From: Xanthostigma xanthostigma
Lineage: Eukaryota; Arthropoda; Insecta; Raphidioptera; Raphidiidae
Reading direction: 5' to 3'
NCBI GenBank assembly: GCA_963575645.1
Contig: OY754472.1
Span: 1,674,001-1,738,000 of the forward strand
Length of the DNA stretch: 64,000 nucleotides
In this document: one piece after another, positions 276 to 51,779 of the stretch
How the letters are laid out: each line of letters begins with the position of its first letter
Numbering within the stretch: position 1 is the stretch's first letter
Translations under genes and position numbers: made by a program
Notes under the pieces: model-generated
Told to the model about the DNA's origin: nothing
The model's input: only the letters and a program-made list of their open reading frames with translations
Databases searched by the model: none

Positions 276-796
276 CTGTTGGATTTTTAAAAGAAGACCG
301 GTCTATGGAATGTAGTCCTATGACCTTATTGCAGAAGAGCGCACATGTATTTTATATTAGTAAAAGGTAATGATCCTGGAACCGCTTCTATGCAATAAGG
401 GAGTCCAGTCGATCAAACGTACAACAATTGTGTTATCGCGATAATTTTACTATTGCTATAGCCGTACGACTATACAGCGACACTTGCTAACAGTACAAAA
501 AAATCATACACCAGACAGTACATAGGCGTGCGTCCACGGACTAAGTTGAGAGGTGTTGTCTGAATATCATCAAAATGGAAAGTAAAAAGGGAAAAACAGT
601 TAGAAGTGGCGCTAGGGAGGTCATAGCGAATGTAATTAAAATGTGCAAGTTAGAGGCTCAAAATAATGCCTTAACATTTAAAGCTATACATTGTTTGCAC
701 TCCTTGCTATGCGCCGCCTATGAATTCCGATAATTTGGGAACACATCAGCGACTTCTTGCCCTTTCCCCACCGGTCTTCTTTCGCCGATCGCACAG
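276..796 (+). mobile_element. Non-autonomous Tc1/mariner-type element with TA duplication
   Basis: This 521-bp insertion is absent from the paralogous copy at 24 kb, where the flanks join as gcatattgta/atatgc. It is bounded by TA (274-275 and 797-798). Its imperfect terminal inverted repeats share AAAGAAGACCGGT about 14 nt inside each end and CTGT at the tips. TA duplication is characteristic of the Tc1/mariner superfamily. The element keeps only the start of a transposase (575-733), so it would need an autonomous partner. Confidence 0.7.
575..733 (+). pseudogene. Transposase N-terminal fragment
   Basis: An ATG opens a 52-codon frame starting MESKKGKTVRSGAREVIANV and ending in TAA. A lysine-rich start followed by SGAREVI-type helices resembles the N-terminal DNA-binding region of Tc1/mariner-like transposases common in arthropods. 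After roughly residue 35 the sequence no longer looks like that family. This fits an internal deletion that removed the catalytic domain. It lies inside the TA-flanked element at 276-796. Family assignment is from memory of the motif and should be checked by profile search. Confidence 0.5.
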
Positions 797-1434
797 TAAT
801 ATGCTTTCTGTAACATAGCAAGTAGCAACCTGTAAAACCCCGCCTTATAATATGTGAGTCAGTCACTGGCATAATATTACGTGATATGATTGACTCAACT
901 TTCTCAGTGGCTCAGTTGACTCGAATAACATATTCAGAACTCGGCTCTTTTTGAACCGGTTCAGGGAGCCGGCTCACATACGGGATCCAGATGCAAAGAT
1001 GCAGATCACTTAAAAGACCCGTTTATCTCATCTCTATTCTGGATACGGCGCACATTCGAATTTGTGAAATGCAACTCGTAGATCCGTTCTTGTGTCTCTG
1101 TTACGAACATAAAGTCGCACATTTTCACAAACACGCGCGTTACCCTGTTATATCACTTTGACATGTAAATTATGTTACTACAATGTAGAGGTTTGTTACC
1201 TATCCATGTATTTACACTACCCGGACCCTCCCACTGCCGCACTCTATCCTCCTTTTTATATATCTGCACAGTATACACACATGGTTTTTAACATCCGTAC
1301 ATCGTATGAATACAAATTTTAAAAATCGAATAGACTAAACAAAGCGAAATGTTATACGTTTTTACACACCCCTTATAAAAAAGCAACTTTTCATTCCAGT
1401 AAAATGATTTGGATTTAAACAAATAACACTATAC

Positions 1435-1800
1435 ACACAAAGCTGGATTTGCCGCTAGATTTGATTACTAGTTTTATAGCGCTTGTTTTCTCGATTGTTT
1501 TTATGCGCTCGCTTCACACGAGACGTCTTTTCAAGCTTGTTTTGTCGATAGATCTGGTTCGCGCGCAGTGACAGTTCAAATATAAACGCAGTGCAAAACG
1601 TGTCTGTTAAGTCTGACTCTGAGTAGAATGACGCCATGTTGGTTTGTGGGCCTACGTGACAAGATACTGCTCCCTGATTGGTTCTTGCTCATACCTAACA
1701 GCGGATCTAGCAAGGAAAATAGCACCTGTTCTAATTTTAAAACTTATCTTGTGAGCTAGCAGGCGAGCCCGCAGTGACGTCATTTCCAGCCTCGTATGTT
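1435..1800 (-). repeat. Truncated copy of the element at 40092-40406
   Basis: Shares long patches in reverse orientation with 40092-40406, including the GACGTCA-containing end, 'acgagacgtctttt' and 'tctagcggcaaatcca'. Neither end shows the TTAA seen at the other copy. A short open frame here is conserved only because the repeat is. Confidence 0.5.
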
Positions 1801-1885
1801 TTCCTAAAGCGATCTGTTTGTAACCATTTAATTCTATATAAGATGAACAGAGATAGCAAACTTTCGGCTAGTTTGGTGTATACTA

Positions 1886-2224
1886 TTTTTCTTCATAGCT
1901 CGGTCGCAAGTACGCTTATTAAATACATTAATTAATTAATTTCTTATTAATTACATAAAAACACAGATAAATTCCAAGCAAGCAGTTTTGAGGTTATATC
2001 ACAAATGACAGCTGTTCGCGACTATTAGCTAAAATGTAACAGGGTTACTATATGGAAACGACATCTAAACAACAGTTGGTTGGTTGTTTTTTTTCTTTAC
2101 TGCCGCCCGAACGTACGTACTTCCCGCATAAGCGCTTGTAATCCCACCAATGCGTAAATGTTAGATTTGCTGCTTTACAGTTGATCCCGAAAGTATGTAC
2201 TTTCGATCGCGGTATGAAGAAAAC
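1886..2224. mobile_element. Small TIR element, copy 1
   Basis: About 340 bp ending in inverted repeats of the form TTTTCTTCATA-CTCGGTCG with a second block AAGTACATACTTT. A second copy lies at 14714-15011 and matches across the interior (for example 'ggaaacgacatctaaacaac' and 'tcccaccaatgcgtaaatgt'). No coding sequence and no clear TSD, so the superfamily is not assigned. Confidence 0.55.
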
Positions 2225-2485
2225 TTCTTATTAAAGACGCGTTTTGTAAGTTTTAATAAAAATATTTTTAATTAAAGAAGCTCAAACACAAACCGATATA
2301 GAAGATAATATTTTGTTGATTGAATTTTCCACAAACTTCGCTATAACAAAATTTGAACCATTCATAAAATATTAATATGTTTGATATTAAAATATTAAGG
2401 GAATGTTGCCCGACAAAAGAGAATTTCACTGTAGTGTTATGCCGCGGTTAAACTACATGGTCGGGCACAATTAACAGTCAATTTT

Positions 2486-2899
2486 AGTAATAATAATAAT
2501 AATGCGTTTAATGTCCGTTTCTCGACTTAATGTCATAACAGACGCCATTCACACCATTACTATTTTTTTCTACCACACTTCCCGTTATTTTCTACAATTT
2601 TTAACCTTCAACTGAATAGCAATGGGCGAATGAAGGAATTTTTAGGAAATTAAGATAAGGTAGGCAAATTTTGAGCATAGGAGTTTGACAGGTAATCGGC
2701 CATGGCCTTGAATAAGGAACCATCTCGATATTTATCTGGAATTATCGAGGGAAACCATGGAAAACCTCAACAAGATGCCCGGTACTGGGCGAGAGGCGGT
2801 AGGAAAAAGTCCCAGTCACATCTGCCCCTGCCGGGATTCGAACCCGGTACCTCCCGAATGCGAGTCTAGTGCTCTCACCGCTGCGCCACCCCGCTCGGT
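2486..2899 (-). mobile_element. tRNA-derived SINE with 10-bp TSD
   Basis: Read on the minus strand, the element starts with a tRNA-like head: an A-box-like region (GGTGGCGCAGCGGTGAGAGC) and a B box (GGTTCGAATCC). A body follows with the motif GGAAACCATGGAAAACC in reverse sense, and it ends in a (TTA)n tail at 2486-2502. The direct repeat AGTCAATTTT flanks both ends (2476-2485 and 2900-2909), as expected for LINE-mediated retroposition. A second diverged copy is at 53222-53597. RNA polymerase III transcription is inferred from the boxes only. Confidence 0.8.
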
Positions 2900-2939
2900 A
2901 GTCAATTTTTGTAGATAAGTACGTACATTTCTATACTAA

Positions 2940-3445
2940 CTAGCGATCCGGTCTATTTTGTAAGGTCCATATGATCGAAACTACTCATTACCCACGGCTT
3001 CGCACGCGATTCAGACGAAACACGGATGCATTTCTATATTATTTGGCATAGTTACTCCTTTTCCCTCTAATAAATTTCCAAATTGACGACATTCACGTGA
3101 TAAACCTTGAAAATGACACCCATGTTGATTTTTAGACTATTTACCTCTTTTCACTCTCTGAAGGGGTTGTTTTTGAAAAAGCATGAAACGCGTGTTTATT
3201 TATTTGTTGACAGGAGTAATCCTGCGCATTGTCGAATGAATCTTATATGGTTTCTTCATGAAAACAATTTTTGGGCTTCCGGTTGAATTTCCAAAAATCC
3301 GTTCTTAGCGGATGCCTATACGTCATAATAACTATCTGTGTGCCAAATTTCAGCCCAATCCGTTCAGTGGTTTGAGCTGTGCGTTGATAGATCAGTCAGT
3401 CAGTCACGGTTTTCTTTTAAATATTTAGATTATTTATATAAATAG
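2940..3445 (+). repeat. RTE-like retrotransposon 3' region
   Basis: Begins near 'actagcgatccgg' and ends with 'ttcagtggtttgagctgtgcg' followed by tandem 'cagt' and an AT-rich end. This is the style of 3' untranslated ends of insect RTE-like LINEs. No reverse transcriptase frame is present. Confidence 0.5.
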
Positions 3446-3959
3446 ATACCTAAGTGATAATTTATAAGGACAGATTATTGCCCAATCTATGAAACAGTTT
3501 TTGACGATTATTAATTGTTGTTGACCCTGTACATACATACTTATGTAATATAATGTTCATTATTATAACATACATGAGTATATGGATGAAATTAATTCCA
3601 TAGTCTGGAGACTGGAGCTTTTATATAAAGTGATGTGTTTGAAATTTCGCGTTAATTTTGTACTGCTGTACAGGACCGTAATACAGAACAATGCCATTGT
3701 TCATAAATTGTTTTTTTATTGAATTCGATAGTCATACGCTGGGAAGCCTATAGATGTGAATTTTGAAATCATCCTCTATTTTCACAAAAACGCTGAAACA
3801 CGTAATTCTTAATTTCATATCAAAATCCTAAACATGAATTTTAATGTTCCAAATTTGGGAAATGATGGGCTCCCCATACAAAGTTTCATCCCCGAAGTTA
3901 TTCCTCGGTTATTAAAAAAAGACAGAAGTATATGTTTGCACCCCCATATACTTTTATTC

Positions 3960-4940
3960 TATACTGAGCATATGAATCATTGTCTGTATACTCAATGTGC
4001 GGTAAGTGAACGCAACAAAGCGTATCGGAAATATATCTGCGTCTCTTTCTTCGATGTAATTCCTTCTGATTTCTTAGATGATAGGATTGGTTGATGTACT
4101 TGCATTCAATCTGAATAAAGTATCTCTGTTTCAAAAACTTTGTCGTTTTCAATGACGTTAACATGGGCGTACCCAGCTTTTGGCCCAGGAGGGAGCAAAT
4201 TAGAAATTTCTTAAGCCGGGTCCCCCTCGCTTGTTTTGCCCTCCTGGATACGCCAGTGCTTACGGCGTAAAAAAAGACAGAACTATATGTTTGCACCCTA
4301 ATGGTTCGATTGTGATTTTATTCCTATGCTCAGTATATAAATAAAAGTATACTAGTGTGACCTGTGCGAATTATTCGCACTAAATAAGTATAATAATTAT
4401 CACTTTACAAAATTATTTTTTAAATATGATTGCAGGTATTCAATTCGTTTCTAATTTTGCACACTGCTTATAACGTTCTTCTTTTTGTTGTGTTACAATA
4501 TGAAGCTCAGATGACAGATCGAAGAAATATTTTACTAAAATTGTCATATAGAGGCGCAAGTAGCAAAAGCGTTGAGCTAAGCCGTCAGATGGCATCATGC
4601 AGCATTGCTGTGACGTTGTTCAGCGTTGCTCGCTGTTTCAAAATTAAAGCCGTCAGAAGGCAGTATGCAGTATTGTGTCTTACAATATGAAGGTCAGATG
4701 ACAAATCGAAGTGTTGACGTTGTTTCAAAATTAAAGCCGTCAGATGGCAGACGTTGTTCAGCGTTGCTGTGTTTTAATTAATTTACAAAAACAAAAGCAA
4801 TAATAAATTTTTTAGTTGTCGATGTCAGTAGAGCAAGCAATTATCTGTAAAGTGATATATAATTTATGCGGAGTAATTGTGAGGTTTTTTCTAAAAAGGG
4901 AGGCAAACATCTTTAACCTTATAGCGTATTAATATAATAT
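3960..4940. repeat. Dispersed repeat D, copy 1
   Basis: Nearly the whole segment recurs at 57040-57965 and part of it at 48480-48875. Shared landmarks are a small hairpin around 'gcgaattattcgc', the stretch 'attgcaggtattcaattcg' and several 'cgtcagatggca' units. Open frames inside are shared by the copies but contain no recognisable domain, so they are not called as genes. A short module with TIR-like ends (ggcgtacccag / ctggatacgcc, about 4162-4255) sits inside this copy and the 57-kb copy. Confidence 0.6.
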
Positions 4941-30381: not shown

Positions 30382-33231
30382 TTAAAATAATTGTCTTAAT
30401 AAGTATTTTATGGAACTCAAAGAGTTATCCATAATATCAATATTATTTTTATTGATAAGACCACACATCACATGCAGCGGTGAATTTGCCAAGCGTACGG
30501 TTTTAGCATTGGGCAAATAAAAAGTAGAAGTGACTCGCGTCCTGCTTACATGTTCTTTGAAAGGAATCAAACTCGAAAATGCAGAATTGTCCACCATATT
30601 ATGTAGAACTTTATACAGATAAAGTACCGAATAATAGTTACGTCTAGAAGCTAAACATTTAAAATTAAATTCAGATAGCAAAAGTTCATGATCAAAACCT
30701 TGAGGTGGATATGATCCATGCTTTCTGTAGTAAAGATATTTTAAGAATTTACGCTGAACAGATTCCAAATTATTAATGTGCACTTTATACACCGGACTCC
30801 AGACAACCGAAGCATACTCTAGCACTGGCATAACCAAAGTTTTAAATAATAAAGAAAGAGTATTAATATTATAGATATCTCTTGAGTTTCTTATAATAAA
30901 ACCAAGTACCCTTTGAGCTTTACCACTAGTGATTTTAATATGTTCGGAAAAGTCAAGTTTTTTATCCAATATAACACCTAAGTCTCTTATTTGATTTTTT
31001 ATTTGTAGATTATATTTATCCATTTTGTAATTAAAATTAAAATTGGTATTTCGGCGTGAAAAGCACATAACACTGCATTTTGATATATTAAAAAATAATT
31101 TATTTTGCAAACTCCACTTATATATATTATTAACATCTATTTGTAACTGCTTGCAGTCATCAATACTAGTTACCCGTTTAAATAATTTTAAGTCATCAGC
31201 ATACAGAAGTACCTCAGAATGTTTTATTACATCAACAATATCATTTATGAATATAAGGAATAAAAGGGGCCCAAGGTTTGAACCTTGAGGCACCCCAGAT
31301 GTAGCACTGAAGGGTTTAGATATAGCATTGTTACATTTAACCATTAGGGATCTATTTGTTAAGTAAGATTTTAGCAGCACTAACAATTCTGTACTAACAC
31401 CAAAATTTGAAATTTTTTGCATAAGAATTACATGATTGACTCGATCAAAGGCTTTTTCGAAATCAGTAAACACTACATCAGTTTGGTAGCCATTCTCCAT
31501 ATTATTTAGCAAAGGTTGCACAAAATTAAGCAAGTTTGACACTGTCGAACGACAGGGCATAAAACCATGTTGGTATTCTGTAACTCGGTTACTGACATGA
31601 TGGAATAGCTTCTTGTATAAAATATGTTCAAAAATTTTAGACAAAACAGACACTAAAGCTATCGGTCTATAATTCTTAACATCATTTTTTTCTCCACTCT
31701 TGTAGATAGGACATATATATGATATTTTCCATTTTTTAGGAAATACGCAACTTTTGGTAATTAAGTTGAATAGGTAACAAAGAGGGTAAATAAAAAAATC
31801 CTTACAGCCTTTAATAACAAAAGAAGGGATGCCATCAGGACCAATAGCCTTATTGCCCTTCAAATGATCAATGGCCTCATGAATGTCCTGCTCTAATATT
31901 GAGTCGAACTTCAAATATAGATTAGTAGAGCTTTGATCAGCGTTTTCTATTTCAAACTGCTTACACTTAGTATACACTGATTGAAAATACTGAGCAAATA
32001 AGTTAGCACAATTCTGAGGACCTTTTGCAGTTAAATCACCGAAAAACATATCATCTGGGATATCACTTGATTGCCTTTTGCTTTTTATAAACGACCAGAA
32101 ATACCTAGGGTTCATATGAATATTTGCCACACATTTATCAATATAGTTTTTATATTCCAATCTAATTTCATTTTTTAATTCAGAACGTAATTTGTGAAAT
32201 ATGTTATACAACAACTGACTACGCGTTTTTTTGAATTTTCTGTGCATTTGATTTTTCAATTTAATTTTTTGTATAATCTTTTTAGTGTACCAGCAAGGAT
32301 ATATTGATTTTGCCGGGATAGTTTTCGGAACACATTTTTCAAACAGTTCTGTAAGTACCGTATAAAAACGATCTACACAGTCATTAACATCGTTTATAGA
32401 TCTCAACTCCGTCCAATCACATTTCTTCAATAATTCGTATATAAGTGTATAATTGGCTTTTTTAAAATTGAAAATTGCTGAGTTATTAGGTGTAATCCTA
32501 TTACTTATTCTAGAATTAAATGGGATATTTATGTCCAATGGTGGATGAAAGCGTTCATCAATTTTGCTCAGAGGGTCACTTGACACAGTAACCTCAATAT
32601 TTGAGATATCACTGACGACAATGTCAAGTATTTTAAAATCCATATTAAAAACTCTATTGTATTGATATAGGTTATTAAAATTTAAAAAATTATTGAACTC
32701 AAAAGCATACATATCTTTTATCATATCCGGCAAAAACGTAATTGATGGAGAGTTCAAGTCACCTAAAATTATTACTTGATCACCTTCATAGAATGTATCT
32801 TTAACTTGTTCAAAAACTTCATAAAAATTTAAATAATCCTGAATGTTAGCATTGGGGTCAAAATACGCAATTAGGAAATATATATTATTTGAATGATAAA
32901 CATTTACTCTAACACACAGTAATTCACAATGCGGACTGATAGCACTATCAAACAAGTCAATACGTTGACAATTCCACTCACTTGGGTTATTCTTGATTGC
33001 CAGTAGTACACCACCTCCGCGTTTACGTCCAGACACAGTGGCGTCTCTATCATATCTGAACACATCATAACGTTTATCGCATATTTCACTGTTATTTATA
33101 CTATTCTTCAACCAAGTTTCAGAAAAACCAATAATATCATAATTATTCATGGAAATGTTGAGTAATATATCAGATAATTTCGTATTCAACCCCCTAACAT
33201 TCTGGTAGTAAACACTGATACTATTAAAATC
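30382..33231 (-). CDS. LINE ORF2: endonuclease and reverse transcriptase
   Basis: Open for about 950 codons without a stop. The N-terminus carries an apurinic-type endonuclease (EEP fold): YYQNVRGLNTK, then GFSETWL, RGGGVLLAI, LGDLNSP and similar motifs in the first 230 residues. The reverse transcriptase spans roughly residues 440-720, with VFTDFEKAFDRVNH (motif A), SGVPQGSNLGPLLFLIFIND and the catalytic YADD at about residue 663. A 270-residue C-terminal region without RNase H follows. The frame begins upstream of the first plausible initiation codon and overlaps the ORF1 stop (33234-33236) in another frame, suggesting coupled or re-initiated translation. The protein would nick target DNA and prime cDNA synthesis. 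Intactness suggests recent activity, but the copy lacks most of ORF1. Confidence 0.9.
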   Translation of the reverse strand, partial: DFNSISVYYQNVRGLNTKLSDILLNISMNNYDIIGFSETWLKNSINNSEICDKRYDVFRYDRDATVSGRKRGGGVLLAIKNNPSEWNCQRIDLFDSAISPHCELLCVRVNVYHSNNIYFLIAYFDPNANIQDYLNFYEVFEQVKDTFYEGDQVIILGDLNSPSITFLPDMIKDMYAFEFNNFLNFNNLYQYNRVFNMDFKILDIVVSDISNIEVTVSSDPLSKIDERFHPPLDINIPFNSRISNRITPNNSAIFNFKKANYTLIYELLKKCDWTELRSINDVNDCVDRFYTVLTELFEKCVPKTIPAKSIYPCWYTKKIIQKIKLKNQMHRKFKKTRSQLLYNIFHKLRSELKNEIRLEYKNYIDKCVANIHMNPRYFWSFIKSKRQSSDIPDDMFFGDLTAKGPQNCANLFAQYFQSVYTKCKQFEIENADQSSTNLYLKFDSILEQDIHEAIDHLKGNKAIGPDGIPSFVIKGCKDFFIYPLCYLFNLITKSCVFPKKWKISYICPIYKSGEKNDVKNYRPIALVSVLSKIFEHILYKKLFHHVSNRVTEYQHGFMPCRSTVSNLLNFVQPLLNNMENGYQTDVVFTDFEKAFDRVNHVILMQKISNFGVSTELLVLLKSYLTNRSLMVKCNNAISKPFSATSGVPQGSNLGPLLFLIFINDIVDVIKHSEVLLYADDLKLFKRVTSIDDCKQLQIDVNNIYKWSLQNKLFFNISKCSVMCFSRRNTNFNFNYKMDKYNLQIKNQIRDLGVILDKKLDFSEHIKITSGKAQRVLGFIIRNSRDIYNINTLSLLFKTLVMPVLEYASVVWSPVYKVHINNLESVQRKFLKYLYYRKHGSYPPQGFDHELLLSEFNFKCLASRRNYYSVLYLYKVLHNMVDNSAFSSLIPFKEHVSRTRVTSTFYLPNAKTVRLANSPLHVMCGLINKNNIDIMDNSLSSIKYLLRQLF

Positions 33232-33233
33232 TT

Positions 33234-33535
33234 TTAGCGCGGAAGAATTTGTTGAGGAAGTGATGGGAAAAAAACTCTATTTTTATACGTTGTTCTCTTC
33301 TTAACAGATTCATGGACAGCTATGTTCTCAGGCCAAAAAGTGGCGTTACAGACAGTTTTGAAGTCTGACTCACGAATGCCAATTTTAAATGACAAAAAGT
33401 CAGCATCCTTTGAGGTAGTTAGAATCTCACATTTAATATCATCCGAGTCGATTTTGGAAGCAACATAATTTTTGACGGTTTCTTCTGACGTCATTAGACT
33501 TAGTCGTCCAACATAGATCCACTTTCGAATTGATA
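33234..33535 (-). pseudogene. LINE ORF1, C-terminal part
   Basis: The minus strand reads IYVGRLSLMTSEETVKNYVA, FLSFKIGIRESDFKTVC and FWPENIAVHES before TAA. This resembles the C-terminal domain of ORF1 proteins of Jockey/CR1-type LINEs. The frame upstream continues into tRNA-derived sequence (translated MGFEPTTVRS), which is not part of the protein. The 5' part is lost. Confidence 0.7.
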
Positions 33536-49748: not shown

Positions 49749-50345
49749 TATAGTGATTTTCGTTCAACAGCGAGAGGATGTCCCCCAAATCGATATAATT
49801 TAATTTTTTGAATAAGCCATCCTCAGTTTAAGCTTAGATATAGTCAAAAAAATAATGAAATACATTGTTGAAAACATAATTATACATATTTACCTATATT
49901 TTTAAACGATGGAATAAACTGCCAAGCAGTATTAGATGCGTCATAAATAAAAAAAAAACGAGTGTGCTTTAGACCACACGACTTAAGTAAATCTTCTTCC
50001 TGTCATAGTTTGTTATTGATCACCCGAAAATTCACAAAATATGAACTTTAAAATGATTTTACAATTTTATTCACTTAAAACGTAGAATATTTAACGTATT
50101 GAACAAAATATTAATTTATAAAATTGTTCAAGAACGAAATGAACAGTCCAATGTAAGAAGAAAGAAATATAAACAAAAGTAATACATTGCAATTACTTAG
50201 CTCTCGTTGGATTTTAAGCGTACATCTTTATGAAATATTGTTTAAAGTAGGTTTACAAAACTTTTTTCTGTCACCCGATAGCGCCACTGACAAGTAAAGT
50301 ATGTGTCATTCTATTGTTAGTACTGCTTAGACAGGTCGCAGTATG
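49749..50345. other. No gene recognised
   Basis: The segment 'acccgatagcgccactgac' just upstream of the LINE resembles 'acctgatagcgccactagcc' just downstream of it (51944). This could be a long diverged duplication or two copies of one repeat. Confidence 0.4.
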
Positions 50346-51779
50346 CGGTGGGTATATTTTGCGATCTGTCTAAGGCATTTGATTTTGTAGATCACGAAAT
50401 TTTATTAGATAAATTGTATTTTTACGGTGTAAGAGGCACAGCACTAGATCTTTTAAAGTCTTATTTAAGCGGAAGATGCCAATGTACCCAAATAAAAAAT
50501 TGCCAATCTTCTTGGCTAGATATTGAAAAAGGGGTACCCCAAGGGTCTATCTTGGGACCCTTACTCTTTATAGTATATGTAAACGATTTAGCATATAATA
50601 TACCTTTAGCTGAAGTTACGCAATATGCTGATGATACAAGTTTGTTTCTTTGTAACGACAATAGCACTAATTTGATAGAAAATATAAATATATCTTTAGG
50701 TAATGCAAAAAATTGGTTCGCCGCCAATAAGTTACTAATGAATGACAGCAAAACATTTCAAATCAACTTTACCACGAGAAATAAAAACCAGCTTCAGTTA
50801 CATAACCAAACAAATTCGGTTAATTTTCTGGGAGTGACACTAGATTCTAGCCTTAATTGGTCAAGTCATATTGATAAACTGGCAGGTAAGCTGTGTTCTT
50901 CAAATTATGTGTTACGTAAACTTGTAAATTTGGTAGACAACAAAGTTATCAAAATAGCTTATCATTCTTTCATCCAATCTCATATCCGGTATGGGTTGAT
51001 ATTCTGGGGTAATTCTCCATATTGTGATCGCATTTTTAAGCTCCAAAAGCGAGCCATAAGGACTATTACTAAATCTCAGTGGAATGATTCCTGCAGATCT
51101 TTATTTGTTAAACTTAATATAATGTCACTATGCTCCCTTTTTATTAATGATTGTTTGCTCTTTGCGAAAAGCAACAGTCAAAGTACACACTCCGATCAAC
51201 ATAATTACCTTACAAGATACCGTAAGGATACACGCATACCGAAGGTGAGATTGGGTCTGACTGACAGAAGCTATGTATGCATAAGCTATAAATTTTTTAA
51301 TGCTTTGCCTCTTACACTACGACAATTAAATTTTAAAAATTTTAAGAACAAAATAAAAGAATAGATATCACAATATTTCAATTAATCCTTACACAAGATA
51401 GATTGATAAAAGTCTTTATTTAAAAATTCACGACATGTTTCGACAACATGGTTGTCATCATCAGGTGATAATTCAAAAAATTTTCGATATATGTAAAAGA
51501 TTATATAAAATTAAAAGATTATTAAGATCATATATCGAAAATTTTTTGAATTATCACCTGATGATGGCAACCATGTTGTCGAAACATGTCGTGAATTTTT
51601 AAATAAAGACTTTTATCAATCTATCTTGTGTAAGGATTAATTGAAATATTGTGATATCTAATCATATCAACACAAGAATTAAGAGAAGAACCTTATCTTT
51701 TAAAATAAAAGAAGTTTGCATAAAAGAGTGCGTATATTCCACTGAGGAATTTTTTAATATTAATTTCAACAAATTTTAA
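50346..51779 (+). pseudogene. LINE reverse transcriptase, truncated and interrupted
   Basis: Open from 50348 to an insertion-created stop near 51364. The motifs present are VGIFCDLSKAFDFVDHEILL (motif A), KGVPQGSILGPLLFIVYVND (motif B), YADDTSLF (catalytic) and LGVTLDSSLNWSSHI. The C-terminus, ...FKNKIKE, is interrupted by the palindromic insertion. Beyond it the same frame resumes as KIKEVCIKECVYSTEEFFNI and ends at TAA 51777-51779. The endonuclease and the first RT motifs are lost by 5' truncation. Confidence 0.85.
51362..51701 (+). mobile_element. Penelope-like palindromic element C with hammerhead motifs, 12-bp TSD
   Basis: AAAATAAAAGAA (51350-51361 and 51702-51713) flanks 340 bp. Two long arms, 51362-about 51494 and about 51528-51660, are reverse complements. 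A 41-nt tail (51661-51701) follows the right arm. Each arm holds a hammerhead-like segment: CTGATGA, one extra T, a 6-bp stem II (GACAAC-CAT-GTTGTC in the left arm, one G-T wobble in the right), GAAAC, AT, GTC, with stem I TCAC/GTGA. In the right arm these lie at 51554-51594 (plus); in the left arm at 51428-51468 (minus). It interrupts a LINE frame. Confidence 0.85.

Follow-up and report, generated by a model that had tools for sequence, protein, structure and literature searches.

Small hammerhead variants of Penelope-like elements (PLEs) that cleave as dimers were reportedly described by Lunse, Weinberg and Breaker in 2017 and by Cervera and De la Pena in 2014. PLE hammerheads have no stem III, may cleave as dimers and require a palindrome at the stem III position (PMC6155905, PMC7761336, PMC6466107). 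These small variants comprise a minimal type I motif in the pseudo-LTR (pLTR), which has no stem III of its own, carries a palindrome instead and is expected to act as a dimer; the motif described below is similar in each respect and shows no demonstrable difference from them (PMC6466107, PMC7761336). The type I hammerheads of newt and axolotl were also reported to have a very weak stem III, whose loop is palindromic, and to work efficiently only as dimers; they differ from the present motif in that they reside in tandem retrozymes and keep the loop 1-loop 2 contacts (PMC7229834). Two PLEs offer the closest comparison for the insertion itself. Poseidon PAc of Anolis carolinensis uses AT-rich targets, of which both strands are cleaved and primed, and has two start sites that define the tail (PMC11167929), while Penelope of Adineta vaga exhibits head-to-head inverted pLTRs, a 31-bp tail at one inverted pLTR, a 9-bp duplication and unrelated DNA captured between pLTRs (PMC3846280). 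All of these features resemble what we found here, though the word hammerhead does not occur in the main text on the latter (PMC3846280).

The locus lies in a 64,000-nucleotide stretch of Xanthostigma xanthostigma (Raphidioptera; assembly GCA_963575645.1, contig OY754472.1, positions 1,674,001 to 1,738,000), which is hereafter called the window. A sequence-only reading of this DNA had proposed hammerhead-like motifs in both arms of a palindromic insertion spanning 51362..51701, and had linked them to PLEs. The limits of this 340-bp palindromic element (51362-51701) proved exact, and it is flanked on both sides by a perfect 12-bp repeat, AAAATAAAAGAA (51350-51361 / 51702-51713). Its palindrome arms (51359-51493 and 51529-51663) are 135 nt each and 99% complementary. 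The element is an insertion of a PLE, consisting of two head-to-head pLTR copies with a 41-bp tail and a 12-bp duplication, where the tail is defined as in PMC3846280 and PMC11167929. Its features are as follows.

50321..51361, + strand: insertion host, an interrupted reverse transcriptase (RT) ORF belonging to a non-LTR retrotransposon (Pfam RVT_1, E 1.5e-21)
51350..51361, no strand: left target-site duplication copy, 12 bp, AAAATAAAAGAA (flank repeat; overlap in the empty-site search exactly 12 nt)
51362..51535, sense on the - strand: left pLTR copy (BLAST), with its short outer end at 51362
51428..51468, - strand: left-arm hammerhead motif including stem I TCAC/GTGA (pattern and fold; core to GTC 51432-51464)
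51433..51438, - strand: ACATGT palindrome of the left arm (stem III half-site for a dimer)
51529..51660, sense on the + strand: right pLTR copy (inverted-repeat and BLAST comparison)
51554..51594, + strand: right-arm hammerhead motif including stem I (pattern and fold; core to GTC 51558-51590)
51584..51589, + strand: ACATGT palindrome of the right arm (stem III half-site for a dimer)
51661..51701, + strand: one-sided tail of 41 bp, confined to the right outer end
51702..51713, no strand: right target-site duplication copy (flank repeat; empty-site search)

The insertion point falls in the 3' part of the host RT ORF, and the element sits in a sense-oriented retrotransposon. For the empty-site search, the flanks were joined without the element and one repeat to give a 198-nt query, and 40 of 80 candidates were scored. 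An empty site was found in 38 of the 40 genome matches listed, which cross the junction unbroken at 82–99% identity, and the other two were the window's own flanks, overlapping by exactly 12 nt. This indicates an insertion accompanied by a 12-bp target-site duplication. Of the features by which PLE membership is judged, the element itself has inverted pLTRs, the optional tail at one end (30–40-bp class; here 41) and a short target-site duplication. The BLAST matches of the left and right pLTR copies overlap by 7 nt at their junction, which constitutes a microhomology, and at its inner end the left copy reaches further upstream into the PLE leader than the right copy does. Within the window, no convincing further copy of the element was detected (best match E 0.002 over 46 nt). 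Elsewhere in the window, an uninterrupted 964-aa frame at 30382-33276 (-) resembles, as judged by eye, an endonuclease and RT of another non-LTR retrotransposon.

When read in the sense direction, each arm consists of TCAC CTGATGA T G(A/G)CAAC CAT GTTGTC GAAA CATGT C GTGA, in which the motif CTGATGATG..GAAACATGTC occupies 51432-51464 (-) and 51558-51590 (+). The core, GAAAC, GTC and stem I TCAC/GTGA are found in both arms, exactly as the sequence-only reading had listed them. The stem II that it gave for both arms (GACAAC/GTTGTC, loop CAT) is correct for the left arm only, as the right arm has GGCAAC/GTTGTC, whose second pair is a G-U wobble. From the letters, cuts would be predicted between 51432 and 51431 in the left arm and between 51590 and 51591 in the right arm. 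The hammerhead-like pattern CTGANGA..GAAAC..GTC has two matches in the window, both located in the element, while shuffled sequences gave 0.03 on average, which corroborates the proposed presence of the motif in the two arms. Throughout the genome, the stricter pattern CTGATGATGN{8,24}CGAAACATGTCG matched 14 times in 623 Mb and its reversed form 0 times; by their place, all 14 matches fall in pieces of this PLE family.

The covariance-model search that had been suggested as a check gave a negative answer. No Rfam hammerhead was matched at the locus at gathering score or up to E = 10, when the window, the element and the right arm alone were searched, with the left arm covered within the element. 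The Rfam matches at this place came from models of long-hairpin microRNAs, from a single bacterial sRNA and, weakly, from a snoRNA, and none of them reached its gathering score. Over the genome, RF00163 gave two sub-threshold places, neither of them at the locus (73 of 81843 candidates scored). These near-threshold Hammerhead_1 matches are located at G000:C1:5417285-5417330 (+) and G000:C1:46574205-46574250 (-), with 33.6 bits against a cut-off of 34, and could represent a retrozyme family.

The type I topology had been recognized correctly, with stem I open, and it is stem III that needs a different description. The minimal stem III claimed earlier (AC/GT around AT) is impossible within a monomer, because its 2-nt loop is disallowed under nearest-neighbour rules; a stem III closing within one molecule, as in a canonical monomeric type I hammerhead, is hence absent. 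The letters at this position, ACATGT, are self-complementary, so that stem III can form only between two RNA copies, and the ACATGT:ACATGT duplex was computed at -4.6 kcal/mol. If formed, it would join two separate RNAs or a pair of pLTRs carried by the same tandem RNA. For the isolated arms, the best folds (-11.3 / -10.7 kcal/mol) keep stems I and II and place core letters in three further pairs, while the open hammerhead without stem III scores -7.1 / -6.5 kcal/mol. The full transcript of the element was predicted to fold arm on arm at -209.4 and -205.0 kcal/mol on either strand. Such pairing hides both motifs, and cleavage from the window copy is therefore unlikely as judged from the folding model, though one motif could still fold in an RNA initiated between the two arms.

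Relatives of the element were collected using the right arm plus tail as a query, for which 40 of 84 candidates were scored, so that the counts are lower bounds. At least 53 matches were obtained genome-wide, and local BLAST of the matched loci gave at least 60 related pieces, some of which are parts of split copies. Conservation of the motif was scored on the 40 pieces that span the hammerhead. Loss of the core over many copies had been named as a finding that would speak against the motif, and the core is intact in 33 of the 40. GAAAC is kept in 38, stem II in 34 and ACATGT in 34, while 28 pieces have a cleavable base located between ACATGT and GTG; all scored elements occur together in 23/40 when the cleavable base is excluded from the criterion, and in 21/40 with it. 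Stem I amounts to 3 bp in the window's PLE family, as the fourth pair is kept in just 6 of the 32 distinct rows. Among these 32 rows, no pair was changed on both sides, and the paired cells (87.7%) were below those of all 500 shuffles. A consensus fold of the 40 pieces recovered stem II alone, with no compensatory changes. Beyond this genome, two patterns gave 0 relatives in viral contigs. Bacterial and archaeal genomes gave four matches, three of which were judged by eye to be chance. The fourth (L003, 618-652) has the appearance of a PLE hammerhead with ACATGT in a contig binned as Oscillospiraceae, which is probably eukaryotic contamination.

Hammerheads were also examined in other PLE families, using 20 endonuclease loci chosen by hand from 151 matches. 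A sense motif was observed in 15 of them and none in the other 5. The pattern without stem filter gave 12 matches in these loci (11 loci) versus 0 for its reversed form; the pattern with stem filter gave 21 versus 5 reversed and added 4 more loci, including family F. MAFFT misplaced stem II across families, and the pairs were hence counted by a script. In representatives of five families (A/B, C, D, E, and F), CTGANGA is followed by one extra A/T and then by a G-C-closed stem II, where the extra base and the G-C first pair were both required by the script parse and thus built in. When the extra base is omitted, however, the first stem II position becomes T or A opposite C, which gives no pairing. 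The extra T between core and stem II, which the sequence-only reading had noticed and regarded as a deviation, is indeed present, but it is no defect of the window locus, since one extra A/T is common to the five representatives. The title of a 2001 paper reportedly refers to a viroid hammerhead with an additional core nucleotide, which presumably lies at the same place as the extra T of the window motif.

Stem II pairs 10.2–10.4 are formed in all five families despite their differing letters, whereas stem II arms crossed between families pair at 0 to 2 of the 3 positions. At the sequence level, this supports covariation of stem II between the five families. The palindromes at the stem III site are ACATGT, ACTAGT, ACGT, ACATATGT, and ATGTACAT in the representatives; as compared between the window and L081, L085, L072 and L082, they vary between 4, 6 and 8 nt and are still self-complementary, and in each representative a cleavable base directly follows the palindrome. 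CTGANGA, GAAA and the cleavable base at position 17 are also kept in the five families. The palindrome is broken in a further copy, L089, which retains the core and GAAAC. As read from the script parse, stem I is weak in two cases, with a single pair in L079 and two pairs in family F. A further similarity concerns the position of the motif. PAc is cut 26 nt after the start of an ATG located at the start of stem II (PMC11167929), and the distance from ATG 51564 to C17 at 51590 in the right arm is also 26 nt, which places the extra T in that ATG. The ATG at 51564 opens only a dozen codons before a stop at 51600-51602, whereas that of PAc is the start of its ORF (PMC11167929).

The link to PLEs proposed earlier was right, as it is borne out both by the anatomy of the element and by sister copies that carry an endonuclease frame. 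In L039, a GIY-YIG frame lies upstream of a pLTR of the window's PLE family (PF01541, E 1.2e-6, above the cut-off), and a second copy, 97% identical, has a 465-aa open frame at the endonuclease, which is the longest such frame of this family. Among the loci examined, neither an intact parent ORF of the window's own family nor its RT was found. The related family L090 contains RVT_1 and GIY-YIG in one 844-aa frame, before which the hammerhead motif is located in antisense and after which in sense. GIY-YIG together with RT, the combination that characterizes endonuclease-containing PLEs, is thus represented by GIY-YIG in L039 and by both domains in L090. As a whole, the sequence-only interpretation was right in kind and is partly supported, with stem III and the extra base re-read. 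The PLE leader also contains an 84-nt GT-AG intron, which was identified by exact pattern in L039 (1898 onward) and L040. It is absent from L042 and L056 by exact pattern, and from L010, L035 and L043 as seen in BLAST blocks. Its retention in some copies and absence from others suggests that sense RNAs, with or without splicing, served as the templates of insertions. PMC3846280 leaned to an antisense template for Adineta vaga without excluding a sense one, whereas the intron-less copies found here point to sense.

To compare the ends of the copies, we used coordinates q, in which q1 = 51529 and the predicted cut is q62/63. The outer ends of the pieces cluster at approximately q133 (short) and q173 (tailed). 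All of the 22 tabulated inverted pairs, which were matched by proximity and whose short and tailed labels were assigned by hand from BLAST tables, are arranged head to head, and every pair combines a short outer end with a tailed one. This count omits L055, L056, L057, L058, L059 and L068, whose second part has no outer end, and L045, which is split by other DNA. A flank word of at least 12 nt is common to 14 of the 22 pairs versus 0 of 462 mismatched flank pairs, and these 14 pairs, taken alone, also have one short and one tailed end. Seven of the eight pairs that share no 12-nt flank word are among the more diverged copies, and widely spaced pairs of this kind are only putatively both arms of one insertion. 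The start sites of PAc exhibited no strand difference in vitro (PMC11167929), whereas the tabulated pairs use one of each. The target-site duplications of the window's PLE family are 12–14 bp, compared with 8–10 bp in Adineta vaga (PMC3846280). The short end of L064 is about 10 nt shorter than the other short ends.

The positions of the inner ends vary among loci (q-41/q1 for the window; elsewhere, for example, 104/14, 78/2, and 67/31), and some pairs have equal inner ends, namely 77/77 (two loci), 91/91, and 44/44 (L045). Recurrent outer ends combined with variable inner ends are expected when two cDNAs start from fixed priming sites and are then joined by their ends. L026 (C5:13855312) and L029 (C2:19730453) share the hairpin junction q77/q77 on different contigs and with different flanks, for which either a self-priming hot spot or a shared palindromic template may account. 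In L035 (G000:C2:15303400-15308900, 597-4800), the members of an inverted pLTR pair lie about 3.9 kb apart and are accompanied by a 13-bp duplication; the intervening DNA, apparently unrelated and partly repetitive, looks captured, as in rotifer PLEs.

Since both cDNA start sites are located downstream of the predicted cut, only arms ending at q63 could arise from a cut RNA. Local BLAST located none of the 60 pieces starting at q57–q66, and 40 pieces run through the predicted cut, which indicates that their templates were uncut RNA. In a closer check using references for both subfamilies, 1 of the 44 arms of the tabulated pairs started exactly at the cut. This is the left arm of L069, with a 32-nt match of 91% identity; the next nearest starts are 4 nt after the cut (L028) and 7 nt before it (L047). 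In L069 (G000:C7:8127500-8133000, 1275-2638), the left arm is split by approximately 1 kb of other DNA and the right arm starts inside the leader intron. It is the one candidate for an insertion from cut RNA. A single arm among 44 could reflect either chance or an infrequent cut template, and no pile-up is visible at the cut. By analogy, this is in line with the results on the anole PLE, in which RNAs with a mutated ribozyme were inserted normally and protein was required for cleavage (PMC11167929).

We consider, with a probability of about 0.92, that the window element is a small insertion of an endonuclease-containing PLE, generated as a double-cDNA product joined head to head. The duplication, the empty site, the two recurrent outer ends, the variable inner ends and the endonuclease frame upstream of sister copies were observed, and from them we infer which enzyme acted, how the steps were ordered and how priming took place. 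A PLE protein would cut both strands of the non-LTR retrotransposon at an A/T-rich site with a 12-bp stagger. Two cDNAs, one per target strand, would then be primed from two start sites in the 5' portion of the PLE RNA, which are separated by approximately 40 nt; the cDNAs would extend back through the hammerhead into the leader, stop at different points, and be joined head to head at a short microhomology. The hammerhead motif would be carried along passively as a part of the PLE leader.

Several other explanations were weighed against this double-cDNA insertion. A chance resemblance to the hammerhead would agree with the missing Rfam match and the missing within-family covariation, but it is hardly credible in view of 0.03 matches expected in the window, the counts of 14 versus 0 in the genome and 12 versus 0 in other PLE families, and the between-family covariation, and it was rejected on the genome-wide counts, the other-family counts and this covariation. 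A metazoan retrozyme, which is a small non-autonomous element moving via self-cut circular RNA, would share the type I motif and the size of a few hundred nucleotides, and retrozymes co-occur with PLEs (PMC7229834). Retrozymes are, however, described as tandem repeats with loop-loop contacts (PMC7229834), whereas the copies here are inverted, a monomer stem III is impossible, and just 1/44 arms starts at the cut site. We regard this origin as very improbable and rejected it on the inverted arrangement and on the run-through of the sequence across the cut site into PLE sequence. An equally slim chance is given to a DNA transposon of the foldback or MITE type that would hold the motif by descent in its inverted repeats. 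Near-perfect inverted repeats with a flanking duplication, as well as the one inner junction common to L026 and L029, fit such a transposon, but the inner ends otherwise vary by locus while two outer ends recur, a tail is present on one end of each pair, single-armed copies exist, one copy has an endonuclease frame, and the intron is absent in some copies. The variable inner ends contradict it, and it was rejected.

The remaining explanations concern what the motif or the locus does at present. It is rather unlikely, though deserving consideration, that a real motif is no longer mainly a ribozyme and is kept as an RNA-dimer or protein-binding site, with cleavage being incidental. The palindromes in five families, the inner ends that are not piled up at the cut site, and the normal insertion of ribozyme-dead anole PLE RNA, whose cleavage needs protein (PMC11167929), are consistent with such a role, but the catalytic letters are kept in five families beyond the need of a dimer site alone, and L089 still has its core and GAAAC without a palindrome. 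It is improbable that the host now uses the locus as a source of long hairpin RNA for the small-RNA silencing of PLEs; the predicted arm-on-arm fold of -209.4 kcal/mol and the sense orientation within a retrotransposon would suit this function, but the element is a single copy whose arms are 99% alike. A long shot is that the PLE hammerhead may act first as an RNA-pairing device, whose palindrome joins two template RNAs or two pLTRs. If this were true, pairing would let two RT subunits prime both target strands, one per start site, and would explain the one tailed and one short end of each tabulated pair, the palindrome kept while its letters change, and the straight passage of most insertions through the cut site; in that case, the role left to cleavage would be to free the templates or to act at another step. 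The odds of this role were lowered slightly because one arm starts exactly at the cut.

Under the preferred reading, a double-cDNA insertion of an endonuclease-containing PLE, this genome is a natural record of such events, in which the outer ends of 22 tabulated inverted insertions recur at two positions, while their inner ends vary and do not pile up at the cut site. Within this record, it is the paired insertions that merit attention, each tabulated pair combining a short with a tailed end. Furthermore, several PLE families with covarying hammerheads make both the structure and the dimer pairing testable by sequence swaps.
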